NCBI RefSeq assembly: GCF_030466405.1
Contig: NZ_JAGGJF010000004.1
Span: 62,001 to 126,000, forward strand
DNA: 64,000 nucleotides
Reading direction: 5' to 3'
Origin: Pseudidiomarina terrestris
Lineage (GTDB): Bacteria; Pseudomonadota; Gammaproteobacteria; Enterobacterales; Alteromonadaceae
Of the stretch, positions 9,184-19,509 are shown in pieces. Under the pieces are notes generated by a model. It saw only the letters and a program-made list of their open reading frames with translations. It ran no database searches and had not been told where the DNA came from. Position numbers and translations under genes: made by a program. Each line of letters begins with the position of its first letter. Position 1 is the stretch's first letter.

Positions 9184-9573
9184 ATGAAAGCAATAAAAGG
9201 TTTAGCAGCTGCTGTAGCAATCTTAGCCGCGAGTGCGACTTTGCAAGGATGTATCATTGTTGCCGACGGCGAGCATGGCGATGGCTACTCAAGCAGTGAC
9301 TTCCGCAAACAGGAAGAGCAGAACCGCCAGATGATTTCGGCGTTGTCGGATAGCGCGACCTTGACCGATGTTCGCAGTCGCATGGGAACCCCGGATTTTG
9401 CCAATCGCACCACCCTTGATGGCGCCCGCTACGATGTCCTTTACTACCGTACACACCGCGTCGAAGCTGATGGCAATACCAGCAAAGACGAGTGCACACC
9501 GCTGGTTTTTAAAGACAGTATTCTGGTCGGAACCGGTGAATTGGCACTCAGCCGAATCCCACAAAGCTACTGA
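9184..9573 (+). CDS. DUF3192-family lipoprotein between dnaG and rpoD
   Basis: A 129-residue protein with a lipoprotein signal peptide: a hydrophobic stretch ending LQGCI, with Cys 23 as the predicted lipidated residue. The mature part (SDFRKQEEQNRQMISAL, then LTDVRSRMGTPDFAN, then YDVLYYRTHR) has the SmpA/BamE-like outline of DUF3192 proteins: a short helix, then a small beta sheet with the GTPD turn. AGGAG lies 6 bases upstream of the ATG. The gene splits the classical dnaG-rpoD junction. The function is unknown; a BamE-like outer-membrane role is only a guess from the fold outline. Confidence 0.8.
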   Translation: MKAIKGLAAAVAILAASATLQGCIIVADGEHGDGYSSSDFRKQEEQNRQMISALSDSATLTDVRSRMGTPDFANRTTLDGARYDVLYYRTHRVEADGNTSKDECTPLVFKDSILVGTGELALSRIPQSY

Positions 9574-9604
9574 TTAATTTCTGGCTCAAAACTGCATATT
9601 CTGC

Positions 9605-9652
9605 TATAATTTCCGGTCTTGAATTTGATTCGTAAGTTTAAGACCGGTTTTT
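9605..9652 (+). promoter_or_regulatory. candidate rpoD promoter overlapping a terminator hairpin
   Basis: A perfect TATAAT lies at 9605-9610; the matching -35 is poor (TGGCTC at 9582-9587, 17-base spacing). It is followed by CCGGTCTT / AAGACCGG (9613-9620 / 9640-9647) and a T-rich tail, which looks like the terminator of the DUF3192 gene. Transcripts starting from this -10 would begin inside the left arm and so escape termination, which would separate rpoD from upstream read-through. Confidence 0.55.
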
Positions 9653-9687
9653 ATTTATCCATTTGAAATGACAGGTGGTAGATCTGT

Positions 9688-11526
9688 ATGCAGCAGAGTC
9701 GTCAATCGCAACTCAGAATTCTTATTGCCAAAGGGAAAGAGCAGGGGTACCTGACATTTTCCGAGGTTAACGATCATTTACCTTCTGAGATTGTAGATTC
9801 CGATCAAATCGAAGATATTATTGCCATGATCAATGACATGGGTATCAAGGTGTTTGAAAACGCCCCTGATGCCGATGACCTGATGATGAGCGAAGACACT
9901 GCCGATGAAGATGCCGCGGAAGCCGCAGCTCAAGCACTTGCGAGTGTTGACGGTGAACTTGGCCGTACCACCGACCCGGTGCGTATGTACATGCGGGAAA
10001 TGGGTACCGTTGAGCTATTGACTCGTGAAGGCGAGATCGATATTGCCAAGCGTATCGAAGAAGGCATCAACCAGGTCCAGTGTTCCGTCGCTGAATATCC
10101 AGAAGCGATTAACTTTTTACTTGATCAATGGGATCAATGTGAAGCCGAAGAGATGCGTTTAACCGACATCATCTCTGGCTTTATCGATCCAAACGAAGTC
10201 GACGAAGCGCCTGTCGCCGCGACCCACATCGGTTCTGAGCTATCTCAGGATGAGCTCGATGACGAAGATGATGACGACGACGATGACGATGACGACGATG
10301 ATGCAAATGAGGGCGGTATCGATCCGGAATTTGCACGGCAAAAGTTTGGCGAATTACGCGCGCAGTATGAAAAAACGCGCAAAGCTATCAGCAAACATGG
10401 CCGCGATAACGCAAAAGCTCGTAAAGAAATCGACGCGCTGAGCGACTTATTTAAGCAATTCCGTCTGGTTCCTAAGCAGTTTGACCGCTTGGTCAAAGAT
10501 ATGCGTGACATGATGCATCGTGTTCGCGTGCAAGAGCGCTTGATCATGAAGATGAGTGTCGAACAGGCACAAATGCCAAAACGCGCCTTCATGAAAGCTT
10601 TTGCCGGTAACGAGAACAGCACTGCCTGGCTTGATGCCGCTATCGACAGTGGCGAAAGCTATGCGCAAGGCTTGAGTGACCTGCGCCCGGAAATCGAGCG
10701 TTGCATCTCAAAACTGTCTGAAGTCGAAATTGAAACCGGTTTGACCATCGCGAAAGTGAAGGATATCAACCGTCGCATGTCGATTGGCGAAGCCAAGGCA
10801 CGGCGCGCCAAGAAAGAGATGGTCGAAGCGAACTTACGTTTGGTTATCTCGATTGCCAAGAAATACACCAACCGTGGTCTGCAGTTCCTGGACTTGATTC
10901 AGGAAGGTAACATTGGTCTGATGAAAGCCGTCGACAAATTCGAATACCGTCGTGGCTATAAATTCTCAACTTATGCGACCTGGTGGATCCGTCAGGCGAT
11001 CACCCGTTCGATTGCCGATCAGGCACGGACCATCCGTATTCCTGTGCATATGATCGAGACCATCAACAAGCTCAACCGTATTTCGCGGCAGATGCTGCAG
11101 GAGATGGGTCGCGAACCGTCACCTGAAGAGCTGGCTGAGCGCATGGTGATGCCAGAAGATAAAATCCGTAAAGTGCTGAAAATTGCCAAAGAGCCGATCT
11201 CCATGGAGACGCCAATTGGCGATGATGAAGATTCGCATCTTGGCGATTTTATCGAGGACACGACCCTCGACCTGCCAGTCGACTCTGCAACCTCGGAAAG
11301 CTTGCGTAATTCAGTCCGCGAAGTCCTGGGAGGATTGACCCAGCGTGAAGCGAAGGTCTTGCGGATGCGCTTCGGTATTGATATGAATACGGACCATACG
11401 TTGGAAGAAGTGGGCAAACAGTTCGATGTCACCCGCGAACGAATTCGTCAGATCGAAGCTAAGGCGCTGCGTAAACTGCGTCATCCTAGCCGTTCTGAGC
11501 AACTGAAATCGTTCCTTGACGAGTAA
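9688..11526 (+). CDS. rpoD: RNA polymerase primary sigma factor, sigma-70
   Basis: A 612-residue housekeeping sigma factor. Region 1.1 is at the N-terminus ([23 protein letters not shown]). Region 1.2 is [22 protein letters not shown] non-conserved region carries a long acidic tract at about residues 188-206, almost pure Asp. Regions 2.1-2.4 include [20 protein letters not shown] and [13 protein letters not shown]. Region 3 follows, and region 4.2 has [20 protein letters not shown]. Length and order match E. coli RpoD. It is the last gene of the block and ends in a clear terminator. Confidence 0.98.
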
Positions 11527-12550: not shown

Positions 12551-12626
12551 GGCCCCTTAGCTCAGTGGTTAGAGCAGCCGACTCATAATCGGTTGGTCCC
12601 CAGTTCAAATCTGGGAGGGGCCACCA
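12551..12626 (+). tRNA. tRNA-Ile2, anticodon CAT (lysidine-modified)
   Basis: A full 76-base cloverleaf. The acceptor stem is GGCCCCT / AGGGGCC with encoded CCA. The D stem is GCTC / GAGC. The anticodon stem is GCCGA / TCGGT with loop CTCATAA, and a normal T arm follows. A CAT anticodon alone could mean Met, but the body closely matches E. coli ileX/ileY tRNA-Ile2, and the position after rpoD is the ileX position. The C34 is expected to become lysidine (TilS) to read AUA. The gene sits at the left edge of an atypical region and is a plausible integration site. Confidence 0.93.
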
Positions 12627-12658
12627 TCTTAAGTCTATGTAGCTGGCCTATTTTTAAT

Positions 12659-13411
12659 TTACTTCACCGGCAGCGAAATCCCGTTTTGGCGCAACTCGTC
12701 TTCAACTTGGTCTCTGATTTCTTTCATTTGATTGGCAAAGTAATGAAATTGCGCTGCATGCAAGCGAGCGAACGTAAGAAAGTTATAAATCGAGGCGCGT
12801 AGCCGGGTTAACTCGGCCGAACTAATATCGTTAAAGCGCTTGATGCTGCCAAAATCGATATCTGAGGCGGTACTCTGAAACTCCAGTGCAGGGGTTAAGT
12901 CATCTACCATTGTAAGAAAAAGCTGAATGAGCATCTCATTGACTGTCGTCATGTGCTTTGACGTGCTCTCGTAGTAGCCACCCAGCCTACGCTGTAATTG
13001 AGGATCGTCAATTTGGGTAAGTAAGTTTTGTGCTTTGGCCGATTCGTAGCCAGCGCGATTTTGCTTGATTGGTGAGCCGCTCAGTAGCGACAGAATACGT
13101 TTTTCAAGTTCAGGTGATGCACGCCATTGAGCTGGGTTCTCTGCCGTTTGATAAACATACAGCCCGCTTTTCGCACTTAAGGCGAAAGATTGTCCGAGCT
13201 GCTCAAATAATTGAATGTCTTGCTGCAAGTCAGCATGAATAATGAGTAGAACATCATTCTTCTGATTTTCTATAGTGAGCTTCTCGCGCAAGTCGTCGGC
13301 GAAAAAGCCAAGTATCACCGCAATGAAGATGACGACCCCCTCAAGGGCAGCCTTCCTGATAAACGCGAAATCAATCCTGTTGTTGTTGTTGTTTTTTGCA
13401 GAGGCGGACAT
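12659..13411 (-). CDS. uncharacterised one-TM membrane protein
   Basis: A 250-residue product with AAGGAA ahead of the ATG. It begins with a poly-Asn stretch (NNNNN, about residues 7-11), then one transmembrane segment (about 20-43, AALEGVVIFIAVILGFFADDL), then about 200 residues of mostly helical, soluble sequence without Cys. Similar layouts (short N-terminus, one TM ending near a LREK-like motif, helical tail) occur in DUF6090-like orphan proteins, but I cannot assign it firmly. It ends 33 bases from the tRNA. The base composition is lower in G+C than the pair that follows, suggesting a separate origin. Confidence 0.6.
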   Translation of the reverse strand: MSASAKNNNNNRIDFAFIRKAALEGVVIFIAVILGFFADDLREKLTIENQKNDVLLIIHADLQQDIQLFEQLGQSFALSAKSGLYVYQTAENPAQWRASPELEKRILSLLSGSPIKQNRAGYESAKAQNLLTQIDDPQLQRRLGGYYESTSKHMTTVNEMLIQLFLTMVDDLTPALEFQSTASDIDFGSIKRFNDISSAELTRLRASIYNFLTFARLHAAQFHYFANQMKEIRDQVEDELRQNGISLPVK

Positions 13412-13453
13412 GTTGTTTTCCTTAATTTGCTGCCTATGACTTATACTATGCCA

Positions 13454-13564
13454 TCAGCTGGTCAGGATTTTAAGCTCCTCGCGAGGGTCACCACGGATGC
13501 CGCTGGGAAATGTATAAATACCGGCGAGTTTGAACATTGGACTGTATTTCTTTCCTTTGGTCAT
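13454..13564 (-). pseudogene. small ORF, possible IS3-type orfA remnant
   Basis: This 36-codon frame has a strong AAGGAG 5 bases before its ATG. Its first residues, MTKGKKYSPMFKL, resemble the start of IS3-family OrfA transposases (MTK-basic-YSPEFKL); the remainder (AGIYTFPSGIRGD) does not. It may be a decayed or frameshifted insertion-sequence fragment at the island edge, or a genuine small protein. The rest of the 13412-13736 gene-free stretch shows nothing else I can support, apart from a weak TATACT at 13698-13703 that could serve the downstream pair. Confidence 0.3.
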
Positions 13565-13736
13565 GAACACTCCTTATGGGCATATCAAAGCCTCGTTTGG
13601 AATGTGTGCGTAAAATTTGCGTAGAACCAATCTCAGTGCTCCCGCTCTCGGTCTATTCGCAGGCTCGTCCAAATAGGAAATTTCTTAAGACGTGTCCTAT
13701 ACTTCTGGAAAGTCTAGCAGTACAGGGATATTACAG

Positions 13737-15068
13737 ATGAACGATCGGACTCAGGCCAGCAGCGGCAAAAAAAAGATCTTCGTCGTCGGTGCCGACGACT
13801 TCAATCTCTCCCTGATCGAGAAAATTCCAGGCTCGGAGAACTGGGAACTGATCCGCACACTTGAATATTCTGACGTTCAGCCAGCCAGCGGCCGTATCGA
13901 TTTCGACGAGCTTTACGAGCATGCCAGATCCATTATCGACGCGCATGGCGGCAGCCCAGATGCGATCATCGGCTATCTGGATTTTCCTGTGACCTCGCTC
14001 GTTTCGTTGCTGCTGCGCGACTACGCAATGCCGGGTGCTAGTCCCGAAGCGGTCGCGAAATGTGAGCACAAGTACTGGGCACGCCTGAAGGAGAAAGAGA
14101 CCTTCCCCGATGTTGCACCCGAGGTGCGTGCCATCAATCCCTTCGAGCCGGAAAATGCGAAGAAAGACGCGCCGGACTATCCGTTTTGGCTCAAACCGGT
14201 CAAAGGTCATTCCTCGGTGCTCGGGTTTCTGGTCGAGGACGAGGAAGGATTCGATGCGGCGTTGCAAGCCTGTCGCCAGAAGATCCATCTGATCGGCGAG
14301 CCTTTCAACGCTTTCCTGGACAAGCTTGAGGACCGCAGCGAGATCGACGGTATCGACGGTAATTTCGCCGTGGCCGAACAACTTATTTCGGCCCAGCGGC
14401 AGTTCACGCTGGAAGGCTATGTCTGGCAGGGCGAAATTAGGGTCTACGGCGCGGTGGAGTCCCTGCGCGAGGGCGAGCACGCGTCCAGCTTCTCGCGCTA
14501 TCAGTACCCCGCCGATCTGCCCGAAGAGGTCATCGAGCGCTCCACCGAGATCGCCGGCAAGATGATGACGGCGATCGGCTATGACGGCTCGCCGTTCAAT
14601 GTCGAATTCTTCTACGATCCCGAAAGCGGCGACCTGCATCTGCTCGAGATCAACGCCCGAATCTCCAAGTCCCACTCTCCGTTATTCCACATGGTCGACG
14701 GCGCGGCTCACCAGAAGGTGGCTATCGAGCTGTCGATGGGGCTCGAGCCAGACATGCCTTACCGCGAAGGAAAAGACGCCATCGCGGGCAAGTTTATGCT
14801 GAGAAGCTTCGAGGCCGATGGCATCGTCAAGCGCGTGCCCAGCTCTGAAGAGATCGCGGAGTTGAAGCGCATCCTGCCCGATTTCGATGCGAACGTTCTG
14901 GTCGAGAAGGATCAGCGTCTCTCTGACATGTTTTACCAAGACAGTTATTCGTACGAGCTTGCCGACATTTTCCTCGGCGGCCATGACAAGGACATGCTGG
15001 AGGATGCGTATAACCGGATTTTAGCTTCGCTTCCCATCTACATTCAGCCGCACCCCGAGGACTTATGA
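13737..15068 (+). CDS. ATP-grasp ligase of the island pair
   Basis: A 443-residue ATP-grasp enzyme. The N-terminal pre-ATP-grasp Rossmann-like part is KIFVVGADDFNL; PFWLKPVKGHSSVLGF holds the ATP-binding lysine; YDGSPFNVEFF and LHLLEINARISKSHS carry the acidic metal ligands and the conserved Asn. The layout resembles L-amino-acid/carboxylate-amine ligases (BacD type), which join a carboxylate to an amine through an acyl-phosphate. The true substrates cannot be read. I start at the ATG at 13737 (AGGG upstream) rather than the GTG at 13692. The gene is much richer in G+C than its surroundings and overlaps the next gene by ATGA, so both products are probably made together. Confidence 0.82.
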   Translation: MNDRTQASSGKKKIFVVGADDFNLSLIEKIPGSENWELIRTLEYSDVQPASGRIDFDELYEHARSIIDAHGGSPDAIIGYLDFPVTSLVSLLLRDYAMPGASPEAVAKCEHKYWARLKEKETFPDVAPEVRAINPFEPENAKKDAPDYPFWLKPVKGHSSVLGFLVEDEEGFDAALQACRQKIHLIGEPFNAFLDKLEDRSEIDGIDGNFAVAEQLISAQRQFTLEGYVWQGEIRVYGAVESLREGEHASSFSRYQYPADLPEEVIERSTEIAGKMMTAIGYDGSPFNVEFFYDPESGDLHLLEINARISKSHSPLFHMVDGAAHQKVAIELSMGLEPDMPYREGKDAIAGKFMLRSFEADGIVKRVPSSEEIAELKRILPDFDANVLVEKDQRLSDMFYQDSYSYELADIFLGGHDKDMLEDAYNRILASLPIYIQPHPEDL

Positions 15069-17095
15069 AAAGCGTATCCGACTTTCCCCGCGAGATCATC
15101 GAGGAGGAGAATGTCTGGATCCCGGTCGGCGACGGCCTGAAGCTGGCCGCGCGCGTCTGGCGCCCGAAGGATTCAGGCGACGATCCGGTACCGGCGATCC
15201 TGGAATACATTCCCTACAGAAAGCGCTTCGGTTCGACCGTGCGCGACGAGATCACGCACAAATACCTCGCCGGGCACGGCTATGCCTGTGTTCGCCTGGA
15301 CATTCGGGGCAGCGGGGAGTCCGAGGGCGTGCTGACTGACGAGTACCTGCAGAGCGAGCTCGATGACGGCGTGGCCGCCATCCACTGGCTGGCCGAGCAG
15401 GACTGGTGCGACGGCAATGTCGGAATGATGGGCATCAGCTGGGGCGGGTTCAACGGTCTGATGATCGCGGCGATGCAGCCCGAACCGCTCAAGGCCATCG
15501 TTACGGTCTGCTCCAGCGACGACCGCTATGCCGACGACATCCACCACATGGGCGGCACGCTGTTGGGCGACAATCTCTCCTGGGCTGGCGTCATGTTCTC
15601 TTACAACACCATGCCGCCCGACCCCGCGCTAGTCGGGGACCGCTGGAAGGAGATGTGGATGGAGCGCCTGAAGGGGAGCGGACTGTGGCTGAAGACCTGG
15701 CTGCAGCATCAGCGCCGCGACAGCTACTGGCGGCACGGCTCAGTTTCTGAGCATTACGGCGACATCAAGATCCCGGTCTTCGCAGTCTCAGGGTGGGCCG
15801 ACGGCTATACCAATACCGTCTTCCGCCTCATGGAAAATCTCGACGTGCCGCGTAAGGGCCTCGTCGGGCCCTGGGGTCACACCTATCCGCATATCGGAAG
15901 CCCCGGGCCGGCCATCGACTTTCTCGGCGAGCTTCTCGATTGGTGGGATCACTGGCTGAAGGGCAAGGACCAGGGCATGGACGACGAGAACATGCTGTGC
16001 GCCTACATGCAGGACTCCGCGCCGCCCAATCCCCAGTACAAATACCGCAAAGGCCGCTGGGTGGTCGAGGCTGAATGGCCGAGCCCGGATATCGAGCCTC
16101 GCGCCTACAGCTTCGGGACTGGACGCCACCTCATCGCAGAGGATAGCGGTGAGGAGACCGAGGAGGTGGGCATGAAGGTCCAGTCCCCGGTCACGCTGGG
16201 ACTGTTTGCCGGCAAATGGTGTTCCTACGCCAACGGGCCGGATCTCGCAGGTGACCAGCGTTCCGAGGACGGCGGCGGACTGATCTTCCAGACCCACGAG
16301 CTGGAAGAGGACGTGGAGATTCTTGGTCAGCCGGTCGTCGAACTCGACTTGGAGAGCGACCAGCCGATCGCCATGGTCGCGGTGCGTCTGTCGGATTTCC
16401 TGCCCGACCATCAAATCACGCGCGTGACCTACGGGATGCTCAACCTCACCCATCGTGACAGCCGCCAGCACCCCGAATTACTGGAACCGGGCAAGCGCTA
16501 CAGGGTCAAGGTGCCCTTGAACCATATCGCCCAGCGCTTCGAGAAGGGCCACCGAATTCGGGTTTCCGTCTCCACCGTCTACTGGCCGATGGCTTGGACC
16601 CCGCCGGAATCCACCAAGCTCACGGTCTATACGGGCAAGAGCCGGATCATCCTGCCCTGCCGCACGAAAAATGTCGGCGGCGAGGAGGAGGCAAGCTTCG
16701 ATCCGCCGGTCTGCGCGCATCCCCCCTCGACCACTGTGTACAAATCGGGCGAGCATCGCTGGCTGGTCCATCGCGATCTTGCTGACCAGCGCTCCGAACT
16801 GGAGGTCATCGATGATCGCGGCCTGTTCCGGTTCGACGATATCGACCTGACGGTCGGCACCCATGCAGTGGAGAAATATTCAGCCGTCACGGGCGATTTC
16901 ACCAGCGTGATGGGGACAACTGAGTGGATCCGGACGCTCCAGCGCGACGACTGGAAGATCAAGACCCGGACCTATACCTGTCTGACCTCGGACGAGAACA
17001 ATTTCTACATCCGCGCCGAGCTCGATGCCTATGAAGGTGAGACGCGGGTGTGCTGCATGAGTTGGGACGAGACGATCCCGCGCGACCATATCTGA
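15065..17095 (+). CDS. CocE/NonD-family serine hydrolase (X-Pro dipeptidyl-peptidase S15 type)
   Basis: A 676-residue alpha/beta hydrolase with the S15 architecture: catalytic domain, cap, and C-terminal jelly-roll (about residues 380-560), then an extra C-terminal extension. Visible catalytic elements are MMGISWGGFNG (nucleophile Ser), SGWADGYTN (Asp) and VGPWGHTYPHIG (His). YIPYRKRFG and LDIRGSGESEGV are family hallmarks. Members cleave acyl esters, amides or X-Pro peptides. There is no signal peptide, so it is cytoplasmic. It is coupled by a 4-base overlap to the ATP-grasp gene; a hand count of 15121-15180 gives 45 of 60 G+C, against 31 of 60 at 17521-17580 in the next native gene, which supports recent transfer. 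Confidence 0.88.
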   Translation: MKSVSDFPREIIEEENVWIPVGDGLKLAARVWRPKDSGDDPVPAILEYIPYRKRFGSTVRDEITHKYLAGHGYACVRLDIRGSGESEGVLTDEYLQSELDDGVAAIHWLAEQDWCDGNVGMMGISWGGFNGLMIAAMQPEPLKAIVTVCSSDDRYADDIHHMGGTLLGDNLSWAGVMFSYNTMPPDPALVGDRWKEMWMERLKGSGLWLKTWLQHQRRDSYWRHGSVSEHYGDIKIPVFAVSGWADGYTNTVFRLMENLDVPRKGLVGPWGHTYPHIGSPGPAIDFLGELLDWWDHWLKGKDQGMDDENMLCAYMQDSAPPNPQYKYRKGRWVVEAEWPSPDIEPRAYSFGTGRHLIAEDSGEETEEVGMKVQSPVTLGLFAGKWCSYANGPDLAGDQRSEDGGGLIFQTHELEEDVEILGQPVVELDLESDQPIAMVAVRLSDFLPDHQITRVTYGMLNLTHRDSRQHPELLEPGKRYRVKVPLNHIAQRFEKGHRIRVSVSTVYWPMAWTPPESTKLTVYTGKSRIILPCRTKNVGGEEEASFDPPVCAHPPSTTVYKSGEHRWLVHRDLADQRSELEVIDDRGLFRFDDIDLTVGTHAVEKYSAVTGDFTSVMGTTEWIRTLQRDDWKIKTRTYTCLTSDENNFYIRAELDAYEGETRVCCMSWDETIPRDHI

Positions 17096-17433
17096 GGGTG
17101 CCTAGCTGCGGCGGGCGTGCTGTCCGGCTTCTTATTCTTGTCTACGCCGGCTCTTGTTCTCGCAACCGAGCCTACAAAGCTACCAATAATCTATCTGGAA
17201 GTCGTCACGCTACACGCACACGATTTTTTTGTCTCAATTTAGCATGCCAAGTTGCAGATTTAGCTTGCATGGCAAAACAAACGCTTTACAACAAAATTTG
17301 TGAAAACAAAAAAGTTGGCCCTATTCATTCAGTACCTCCTTACACTTGAAAAACTCATTAAGTAAAAAGGCGCCAATGGCGCCTTTTGGTTAGAGCTCAC
17401 GAATGCGTCATGCATTCCGCGCTTGTTAAACTA
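17096..17433. other. A+T-rich spacer at the right edge of the G+C-rich pair
   Basis: Composition drops sharply within about 100 bases of the hydrolase stop; 17220-17360 is A/T-rich with runs of A and T. The frames crossing it are continuations of shadows and show no protein-like sequence. It contains the terminator at 17365-17387. I found no copy of the tRNA-Ile 3' end here. Confidence 0.5.
17365..17387 (-). terminator. bidirectional terminator downstream of the S8 peptidase gene
   Basis: A perfect 10-bp stem AAAAGGCGCC / GGCGCCTTTT with an AAT loop. On the minus strand it is followed by T and ends transcription of the S8 gene; on the plus strand it also has a T-rich arm and could stop the island transcript. 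Confidence 0.85.
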
Positions 17434-19509
17434 TTACCGTACTTCAGAGGTGATGTCGGTCGTGATGGTAAATGGTGTAGCAAGACTAATGTAGCCAGTT
17501 ACACGCAGCGTGTAGGTGCCTGGCATATCGGTCCAGAACTGGATTACCTCAGGGTTCTCCAATGATGCACTGGAAGCGACTTCGACGCCCTCTGGATTGA
17601 CCAGGAAAAAGTCCAAGTCAGCCACACCCGTCCAGTTCAGGGTTGAAGTGATGCTGACATCATTTGGTGCGATTTCCAGCGGGAATTCTTGTACTTCGAG
17701 GTTCTCGGCTGAAACGCCCATAGTGCCGGAATCCATCTGCTGACTGGTGGTAAAGCTGACATCTGGAGATAGAATTGCTCCATCCACATCCATACGGTCA
17801 AACATGACGCGTTTATCCAGAATTCGGACTTCCAGGTCGTGGATTCCTTCACCTAAGTGATCAAAGGCGACGGCAACGTCCTTTGGTGCCGCTTCTGACG
17901 CATCAGCAGCATAGATTGTTTTCGTCCCCATGGATTGCCCATCAGCAATAAGCTCAATCGAAACTGGCTTATCATTGACGGCTAAAAAGTGAAAACGAAC
18001 CCGTTCGCCACGTACTTTTACGAAAACCGACGAATGAGGATTCTTCGCCGTAGTCACGGTTTGTTGGAATGCGGAATCGTAGTGTTTAGTTTGCCACTTA
18101 CCCACATAAACAAATTGTTCAGCGCTTTCATCGGCCGCCGTCCACTCACCTTGACTCGACCATAGAGTATCGCCGTCCAAAAAGGCACGGCGCTTACCAG
18201 TTGTTACTTTCGCTAAATCGACAGCTGCTTTGACATCTATATAGCCGCTACCCACCTCGTGCGGTGCGTAGTCCATTGGCTCTGCAGTATCTTTTATGAT
18301 TTGCTCAATCTGATCAGGCGATAAGTCTGGATTAACTTCCAGCAACAATGCGGCGACCCCTGCTACAAATGGCGTGGCCATCGAAGTACCGCTGATCGTG
18401 TGGTAATACACTGTATATTCAGGGTGCGCTGGGTCGGTAACCGGGCCGGTTGCTCCAATAGCGGTATTCGGAGCCCGGGTAGAAGTAATATCTTGCCCTG
18501 GTGCTGTAATATCCGGTAGCTTGTACGGGTGGCCCGCCACACCGCGACTTGAGAAGTCGGCGAGAAGTTTTTCGCTCGTGCCCGCCGCGACATTAATTAC
18601 CCATGGTGCAACGGCATACTGGTTTAGGGTATCTTCAGCAGGACCGGAATTAGAAGCTGCGAAGCTGACAACCATACCCTTACTATAAGCCTCGAAGGAA
18701 GCCTTGTTGATAGGGTTATTTGGATCAAATTCAGCACCGTCTCCGCCGCCCCAACTATTAGTTATAATATCAATATCAAGTCGGTCTTGATTGGCAATGG
18801 CATAATCGAAACCTAATAACGCATATAGGATCGAGATACCTTCCCCTGCGCCAAGGCCAATAAGACTTGCTCCTGGGGCAATACCATCGTGATAGTAAGC
18901 CCGGCGCTCATCGTTAACTGACGCCATACCAGAGCCTGCAACTGTGCCCGCAACGTGGGTACCATGACCTGACGAAGTATCGCTATTGGGAACTCCTTCG
19001 ATAAAGGCGTTGCGTCCACCAAGCAAATCAAGGTCACCGACAATCTTCACATTTTCAACGGTTTTTGTCTGAAACTCTAGGTCTGGGTGCGTTGCATCTA
19101 CTCCTGAGTCAAGTACCGCTATGGTCACGCCGTGTCCGTCTAAGCCATAATAGTCTTGCACGTAATGACCACCAGTAATCTCACCAGAGGTGTAATTACT
19201 GTATTCTAAAGGGGTATTCGCATAAATACTGCTAACTGCAGGGTTAACCATCAGCGCTTCTAATTGCAATTTAGTTACAGTGGCGCCCGCCATTGGCATG
19301 GTTTTAAGTGCCAGAAATGGGATTCCCAAATTCTGCAACACGGGTTCGATAGTACTCTGTTCGTCAAAGGATACGATGACATCGTATGGCCCGGTAAGGC
19401 TTTTTAAATCTTGTGCCAATTTAGGTCCCAGTAATGCATCAGCGCTAACCGCTGGTGCGACGAAGAGGCCTGAGGCCAAAATACCTAATGATAGAAGTGT
19501 TCGTTTCAT
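17434..19509 (-). CDS. secreted subtilisin-like serine peptidase (S8) with C-terminal domains
   Basis: A 691-residue extracellular protease. It has a signal peptide (MKRTLLSLGILASGLFVAPAVSA), an I9-like propeptide (about 24-100), and a catalytic domain with Asp 134 (AVLDSGVDATHPDL), His 182 (GHGTHVAGTVAG), oxyanion Asn 287 (AASNSGP) and Ser 376 (SGTSMATPFVAG). It ends in two beta-rich regions, the last resembling a pre-peptidase C-terminal (PPC) domain. The complete triad suggests an active enzyme for digesting external protein. It is transcribed alone, divergent from the S10 peptidase gene, with a shared 234-base upstream region; co-regulation is possible but no operator is recognised. Confidence 0.95.
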   Translation of the reverse strand: MKRTLLSLGILASGLFVAPAVSADALLGPKLAQDLKSLTGPYDVIVSFDEQSTIEPVLQNLGIPFLALKTMPMAGATVTKLQLEALMVNPAVSSIYANTPLEYSNYTSGEITGGHYVQDYYGLDGHGVTIAVLDSGVDATHPDLEFQTKTVENVKIVGDLDLLGGRNAFIEGVPNSDTSSGHGTHVAGTVAGSGMASVNDERRAYYHDGIAPGASLIGLGAGEGISILYALLGFDYAIANQDRLDIDIITNSWGGGDGAEFDPNNPINKASFEAYSKGMVVSFAASNSGPAEDTLNQYAVAPWVINVAAGTSEKLLADFSSRGVAGHPYKLPDITAPGQDITSTRAPNTAIGATGPVTDPAHPEYTVYYHTISGTSMATPFVAGVAALLLEVNPDLSPDQIEQIIKDTAEPMDYAPHEVGSGYIDVKAAVDLAKVTTGKRRAFLDGDTLWSSQGEWTAADESAEQFVYVGKWQTKHYDSAFQQTVTTAKNPHSSVFVKVRGERVRFHFLAVNDKPVSIELIADGQSMGTKTIYAADASEAAPKDVAVAFDHLGEGIHDLEVRILDKRVMFDRMDVDGAILSPDVSFTTSQQMDSGTMGVSAENLEVQEFPLEIAPNDVSITSTLNWTGVADLDFFLVNPEGVEVASSASLENPEVIQFWTDMPGTYTLRVTGYISLATPFTITTDITSEVR

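Follow-up and report, generated by a model that had tools for sequence, protein, structure and literature searches.

The locus analyzed here raises the question of why two adjacent genes in the 2.63 Mb genome of Pseudidiomarina terrestris, one for an ATP-grasp ligase and one for a hydrolase of the CocE/NonD (peptidase S15) family, stand out so clearly in composition from their surroundings, and what the two enzymes do together. Both genes lie in a stretch of 64 000 nt (contig NZ_JAGGJF010000004.1, positions 62 001–126 000), which we call the window and whose coordinates are used throughout. The ligase gene (443 aa) occupies positions 13737–15068 and the hydrolase gene (676 aa) positions 15065–17095, both on the forward strand, and they overlap in an ATGA stop/start (15065–15068), as the initial annotation of this region had noted. 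A 4-base overlap is also found in 7 of 39 other pairs with this gene order. The ligase probably starts at the ATG at 13737 and not at the first GTG at 13692, as the shorter form fits the conserved sequence better. With a probability of about 45%, we read the pair as a self-contained, horizontally moving module that makes and breaks a small amide, which probably serves as a compatible solute.

The evidence that the two genes belong together comes from their distribution. In a search of genome contigs the hydrolase gene was located directly downstream of the ligase gene in 14 of 15 ligase loci. Four genome samples contained the ligase in 11 of 398, 17 of 296, 14 of 274 and 8 of 240 genomes, counts which take in the centre genomes and remote matches, and the carriers span Pseudomonadota and Actinomycetota, including Streptomyces and Prauserella. 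Within the main clade of the ligase tree (57 rows, 56 distinct genes) the hydrolase gene is at most 600 bp away in 45 rows, the consistent adjacency that the initial annotation had proposed to look for. The other 12 rows consist of three loci at contig ends (L099, L105, L108), two ligases within 4 kb of a hydrolase gene (L121 and the second ligase of L120), four rows for further copies in genomes that hold the hydrolase (L119, L124 and L014/L114, one gene entered twice) and three ligases with the hydrolase elsewhere in the genome (L098, L122, L123). One Wenzhouxiangella genome (G478; L114, L121, L124) has a single hydrolase for three complete ligase genes and a ligase fragment.

At the level of whole genomes, a hydrolase at E ≤ 1e-100 was found in all 40 genomes with a core ligase, in 39 of them with more than 1000 bits and in one (G632) as a partial gene at a contig end; three genomes whose ligase falls outside the 57-row clade (G1105, G1120, G1227) are excluded from this count, which with them becomes 43 of 43. 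Only 4 of 58 ligase-free genomes hold such a hydrolase, none above 873 bits, and these copies are more distant (Fisher test, 3e-23). The carrier genomes in this comparison were drawn from the ligase searches, and G477–G481 through named loci, so that they are not random draws; the ligase-free controls were taken from listed negatives and are unmatched for genome size and completeness. Three genomes with remote or fragmentary ligases (G331, G1171, G1040) were left out of the test, and G109/G1077 and G366/G848 are, judged by size and coordinates, duplicate entries, as are the identical L014 and L114. Among 94 non-carrier relatives, for part of which the ligase status was checked, 2 hold the hydrolase at the same threshold. 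The co-occurrence extends to genomes in which the genes lie apart, by 134 kb on one contig in G1012 and on different contigs in G897 and G621. The initial annotation had considered that homologues of the two enzymes might never co-occur elsewhere, and the 40 core-ligase genomes contradict this. A group of remote ligases (L109–L112, L127, L128; ∼28–34% identity) comes from six genomes that have no core ligase, and the hydrolase was found in none of them.

We also compared gene order, trees and neighbourhoods. The ligase precedes the hydrolase in 40 of 44 pairs, the order is reversed in three and one pair is divergent; the gap is at most 30 bp in 23 of the 40, one of these being a frameshift artefact (L023, gap −882). 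One linked locus (L017) is counted among the 45 rows given above, stands outside the 44 order pairs and is labelled unlinked in the trees and distance matrices. The distance matrices of ligase and hydrolase correlate strongly (Mantel r 0.86, 0 of 999 permutations), an agreement to which the relatedness of the hosts contributes. In the hydrolase tree the 44 linked hydrolases all fall into one starred clade of 52 members, while the 19 hydrolases outside it are all unlinked; for seven of the eight unlinked members of the clade the ligase is encoded elsewhere in the genome, and the eighth lies on a Roseivivax plasmid. Clustering of neighbouring genes from simple in-house gene calls (28, then 62 loci) gave no third conserved gene, as no cluster occurred in more than 7 of 62 loci, and a larger conserved gene cluster was therefore rejected. 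The largest clusters were antisense open reading frames (ORFs) over the pair, GGDEF proteins, ATP-binding cassette (ABC) ATPases and sets within one actinobacterial family, and 50 neighbour proteins scanned with Pfam were mostly unrelated to each other. We therefore regard ligase and hydrolase as almost certainly a functional unit: they occur together in every core-ligase genome tested while their neighbours change, and very probably they share a metabolite. In the divergent pair (L113) a D-Ala-D-Ala-ligase-like gene (9525–10556) directly follows the hydrolase.

Next, we consider how the pair came to lie in P. terrestris. The G+C content at third codon positions (GC3) is 0.72 (z 4.3) for the ligase ORF and 0.82 (z 7.1) for the hydrolase ORF. 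The window has 43 ORFs that encode 200 aa or longer products, and no other reaches these values; the remaining 41 have a mean of 0.566 (sd 0.035, maximum 0.628). This excess is well beyond chance, and the base counts from which the initial annotation had called two G+C-rich genes (45 of 60 at 15121–15180 against 31 of 60 at 17521–17580) proved correct. We searched 26 Pseudidiomarina genomes, three of them less than 90% complete, and found the hydrolase at high identity in three and absent in 23, which rules out a pair common to all close relatives, the case that the initial annotation had set against a transfer. The amidohydrolase gene upstream of the site could be located in 19 of the 26 genomes. 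A transfer RNA (tRNA) gene with anticodon CAU (12551–12626 in the window, forward strand) is present at all 19 loci as the 5′ border of the site; it is followed by the ligase in three and the ligase is absent in 16. The carriers are the window genome (G000), P. insulisalsae (G002) and P. salinarum (G006), all with the pair at this same site.

The window also holds an orphan gene in front of the pair and an S8 gene behind it. In the two sister carriers, P. insulisalsae and P. salinarum, ∼150 bp separate the tRNA gene from the start of the ligase, and a stretch of 18 kb that includes the pair showed neither the orphan nor the S8 gene. The closest relative, as judged by its amidohydrolase (93%), is G003; here the tRNA gene is followed after ∼740 bp by an S10 gene, with no trace of orphan, pair or S8 gene at the site. 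Further congeners carry different content here, with the S8 gene reversed in G018 and G020. The content behind the tRNA gene thus varies among congeners, and as the pair occurs without orphan and S8 gene in the sister carriers, only the pair moves as a unit, with orphan and S8 gene separate from it. Compared with the two other carriers, the pair of the window has a synonymous divergence (dS) of 0.08–0.17, while that of the flanks (rpoD, the gene of the amidohydrolase and four genes downstream) ranges from 1.35 to saturation, and thus the pair moved between the carrier species long after their split. It is a recently transferred gene pair, absent at the site in close relatives and far less diverged than its flanks; a transfer had been suspected in the initial annotation.

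An island of the classical tRNA-integrated kind was not supported. With up to 3 mismatches allowed, the 3′ end of the tRNA gene occurs as a single copy in the 64 kb and thus has no direct repeat there, and no integrase was found among the six proteins scanned at 11.7–21.3 kb (the pair and four neighbours; the remaining window ORFs were not scanned), so that such an island was rejected. With neither attachment repeat nor integrase found, spread by homologous exchange across the conserved flanks is plausible. The nearest relative found for the pair is from a metagenome-assembled genome of the alphaproteobacterium Parvularcula (59 and 72% identity for the two proteins), which is sister in both trees with a starred support of 100, where supports are SH-aLRT values from a quick method and not bootstraps. 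This agrees with the alphaproteobacterial donor that the initial annotation had suggested from composition, and makes this class a candidate source. Carriage on plasmids was rejected, as only 6 ligase matches lie on plasmids, all remote (25–36% identity). Two plasmid loci, L148 from Paraburkholderia and L149 from Sphingobium, contain ligase relatives at 26–28% identity in other contexts, one of them beside a flavin adenine dinucleotide (FAD) oxidoreductase.

We then examined the two proteins. By profile and predicted fold, the ligase is assigned to the ATP-grasp superfamily: it matches PF13535 with 30.0 bits (cut-off 27) and PF02786 with 27.4 bits (cut-off 19.8), and its structure model has a pLDDT of 88.6. 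The best fold match is BL00235 (PDB 3vot; Z 30.3, rmsd 3.5, 382 residues, 16% identity), with BacD/YwfE (3vmm) at Z 27.9 and RizA (4wd3) at Z 26.1. These three L-amino acid ligases stand among the top 20 fold rows with PurK-like and biotin carboxylase folds close behind, the rows being a second look at Foldseek matches that excludes no family. Similarly, a profile built on the ligase detects 3vot with E 8.6e-11, while urea amidolyase and carbamoyl-phosphate synthetase reach similar scores over a shorter stretch. The invariant residues of the ligase (H111-K112, K153-P154, E290 and E304-x-N306) presumably serve nucleotide and metal binding of the ATP-grasp fold, which we take from the alignment and general knowledge of the family. 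The ligase thus appears related in sequence and fold to the L-amino acid (dipeptide) ligases, from which we predict its activity; it shares their ATP-grasp architecture over nearly the whole model. However, identity is only ∼13–16%, the ligase has consensus motifs of its own (CEHKYWSR and LEINPRxSxSH), and, in contrast to these enzymes, the core ligase group always has a CocE hydrolase in the genome. The three enzymes, the closest ligases of known structure, make dipeptides (PMC6920838).

The hydrolase scores 225.6 bits with PF02129, 151.3 bits with PF08530 and 233 bits with TIGR00976 (cut-off 66.3). Together with a catalytic triad Ser125-Asp246-His272 (Ser125 codon at 15437–15439, forward strand) and Tyr51 at the oxyanion position, these scores place it by sequence in the CocE/NonD family. 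The four residues align with those of cocaine esterase and are invariant in 71 of 71 homologues. A Xaa-Pro dipeptidyl-peptidase was rejected (NF003780, NF003781 and NF003782 with 94.5, 34.0 and 31.8 bits against cut-offs of 642, 881 and 711). The structure model is weak (pLDDT 69), yet it matches cocaine esterase with Z ∼26 and alpha-amino acid ester hydrolase with Z ∼23, the matches ending near residue 535. The hydrolase shares with cocaine esterase CocE and the alpha-amino acid ester hydrolases (1mpx, 2b9v) the alpha/beta hydrolase and PepX_C regions and the conserved triad. It differs from them in its length of 676 aa with an extra C-terminal beta-rich region outside the CocE fold match (residues ∼540–676, 16682–17092, forward strand). 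Two further residues, Asp152 and Asp157, are conserved in all 51 of 51 rows of the linked clade but align with alanines in cocaine esterase. Judged by hydropathy, neither ligase nor hydrolase has a signal-peptide-like N-terminus, and both are therefore probably cytosolic. At the level of enzyme families, the bond-making and bond-breaking pair of the initial annotation is supported.

The long subfamily to which the hydrolase belongs includes CocE hydrolases of importer operons on rhizobial and roseobacter plasmids, which are ∼40–52% identical over nearly the full length (40 matches listed of 214). In the nine contexts read, none has a ligase as neighbour and eight have ABC importer genes close by, and they lie outside the linked clade except that of Roseivivax marinus. 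At a further locus (L049) a ligase-free hydrolase follows a BCCT transporter.

Based on these data we propose that the ATP-grasp enzyme would activate a carboxylate as an acyl phosphate and join it to an amine, as the L-amino acid ligases do, giving a peptide-like amide, and that the CocE-type serine hydrolase would cleave the same amide (or ester). We consider it somewhat more likely than not that the two enzymes share one bond as their target. With no third gene conserved, the substrates should be common metabolites. The amide would be a compatible solute, built when salt rises and degraded when it falls; that the product is an osmolyte is our best guess from genomic association, at somewhat less than even odds. 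One such association is found in L116 (genome G828), where genes for a glycine/sarcosine N-methyltransferase (505 bits, cut-off 350), a relative of the sarcosine/dimethylglycine methyltransferase (413 bits, under the 550 cut-off), a ProV-type ATPase (376 bits, cut-off 327), a permease and OpuAC are followed by the ligase, 2 bp after OpuAC, and by CocE. Judged by these scores, the pair forms the end of a predicted glycine-betaine synthesis and uptake cluster. Furthermore, ectoine synthase is present in 19 of 40 carriers but in 2 of 40 controls (p 1e-5; smallest control genomes dropped and four congeners added), and the glycine/sarcosine N-methyltransferase exceeds its cut-off in 10 of 38 carriers and 0 of 50 controls (p 1e-4). 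The metabolite, which the initial annotation had left as an unknown amide or ester, is thereby narrowed by a context that points to osmoadaptation.

A known analogy is the N-acetylglutaminylglutamine amide (NAGGN) osmolyte system, in which an ATP-grasp synthetase and a peptidase are arranged around a peptide-like compatible solute. Its parts include an asparagine-synthetase-like amidotransferase and an M42 peptidase; neither is found in our pair, whose hydrolase comes from another family. For P. terrestris, which is also of hypersaline origin, ectoine and betaine synthesis genes were not found and the osmoadaptation strategy could not be deduced from the genome according to its authors, who give a hypersaline origin for the carriers P. 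insulisalsae and P. salinarum as well (PMC10893183). A cassette for a new solute would fill this gap in Pseudidiomarina, and an osmolyte product would help to explain the salt tolerance of some hypersaline members of the genus. It is a speculative and rather doubtful extension that the pair makes and recycles compatible solutes of a new class, namely peptide-like amides whose acyl part might be glycine betaine or another quaternary-ammonium acid, and that it is spreading as a two-gene cassette in salt-adapted bacteria of at least two phyla. Both enzyme families are known, but a coupled, mobile, cross-phylum module appears undescribed in the open-licence literature searched, where we found no paper that joins the ATP-grasp family to the CocE and S15 peptidase families or to X-Pro dipeptidyl enzymes; for the alpha-amino acid ester hydrolases the search led to a review of peptide synthesis. 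Ectoine synthase is present in G003, the nearest pair-free congener, and absent in the three pair-bearing species; as three other pair-free congeners also lack it, a replacement by the pair is merely hinted at.

Several observations weigh against an osmolyte module. None of the three Pseudidiomarina carriers has ectoine synthase or a methyltransferase marker over the cut-off, and several other carriers are Streptomyces. Betaine genes were found beside 1 of 53 core-ligase loci searched, some of these loci being cut by contig ends, and a second betaine context (L109, OsmF importer with 427 bits, cut-off 400) involves a remote ligase without hydrolase. The halophily markers may also reflect shared habitat, since the controls were unmatched for genome size and taxon. 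As to the coupling itself, no hydrolase gene adjoins the ligase in the distant-ligase genomes G1105, G1120 and G1227, and where their hydrolases were placed in the tree (G1105 and G1227), these are not members of the linked clade. Finally, the ligase-free relatives of the hydrolase look catabolic by gene context: ABC importers adjoin both the relatives beyond the clade and its Roseivivax member, as would be suitable for breaking down imported amides. The Parvularcula pair itself has genes for an importer ATPase, a peptidase and an amidase above it.

These contexts lead to an alternative that we consider unlikely, namely amide salvage or detoxification, in which the hydrolase would split an imported or damage-formed amide and the ligase would mask or recycle one of the products by coupling it to a common amino acid, comparable to the glutamylation steps of amine catabolism. 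It would agree with 8 of the 9 plasmid contexts (of 214 records), where a ligase-free hydrolase lies at most one gene from ABC importer parts, mostly of the peptide type, as well as with L050, where two such hydrolases occur with SBP_bac_5 and a carbon-nitrogen hydrolase, and with plasmid pB of Ancylobacter polymorphus (L146, 3781–14670), where two long CocE hydrolases are combined with glycine-betaine-type ABC importers. However, no importer, oxidase or regulator is conserved beside the ligase-linked hydrolases. The L146 cluster also contains a carbon-nitrogen hydrolase and no ligase, and might serve to break down a betaine-like amide.

We also give a low probability to a product that is a signal, antibiotic or storage peptide or amide, for which the hydrolase would provide maturation, self-protection or reuse. 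Among the dipeptide-forming relatives of the ligase described above (BL00235, BacD, RizA), BacD serves bacilysin synthesis, and this reading gains from the presence of the pair in Streptomyces and Prauserella; against it, neither neighbour clustering nor the Pfam scan of 50 neighbour proteins gave a conserved tailoring, export or regulatory gene nearby. That the two genes are chance neighbours or hitchhikers of separate pathways is very improbable. This explanation has to account for the co-occurrence in 40 of 40 genomes, the cases with separated genes included, and for two further gene arrangements. On balance, the make-and-break module for a small amide remains our preferred explanation of the pair.

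The rest of the locus is extra to the pair. ARAGORN labels the CAU tRNA as Met; we take it to be Ile2, presumably, from its similarity to E. coli ileX. The lower-G+C orphan gene reported behind it is confirmed (12659–13411, reverse strand, 250 aa, 46.2% G+C). Its protein belongs to no family, with no Pfam or NCBIfam match up to E 0.01, and tblastn gave no match in the pair regions of P. insulisalsae or P. salinarum; it has a single N-terminal hydrophobic stretch. The transposase scrap of the initial annotation corresponds to 13528–13628 (no strand assigned), which matches 7 plasmid records with 73–85% identity and is a probable IS3-type remnant. The plasmid matches stand, while the IS3 label depends on two of them that are both marginal (E 0.07, 40–48 bases) and have an annotated IS3 transposase beneath; for the five stronger matches the records list no feature at this stretch. 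A scan for promoters and terminators gave scores no better than shuffled sequences, and repeats in the region resemble chance. The A/T-rich spacer behind the hydrolase was also correctly described (17096–17433, 45.3% G+C). Upstream of the site, the RpoD protein encoded at 9688–11526 contains a long aspartate run.

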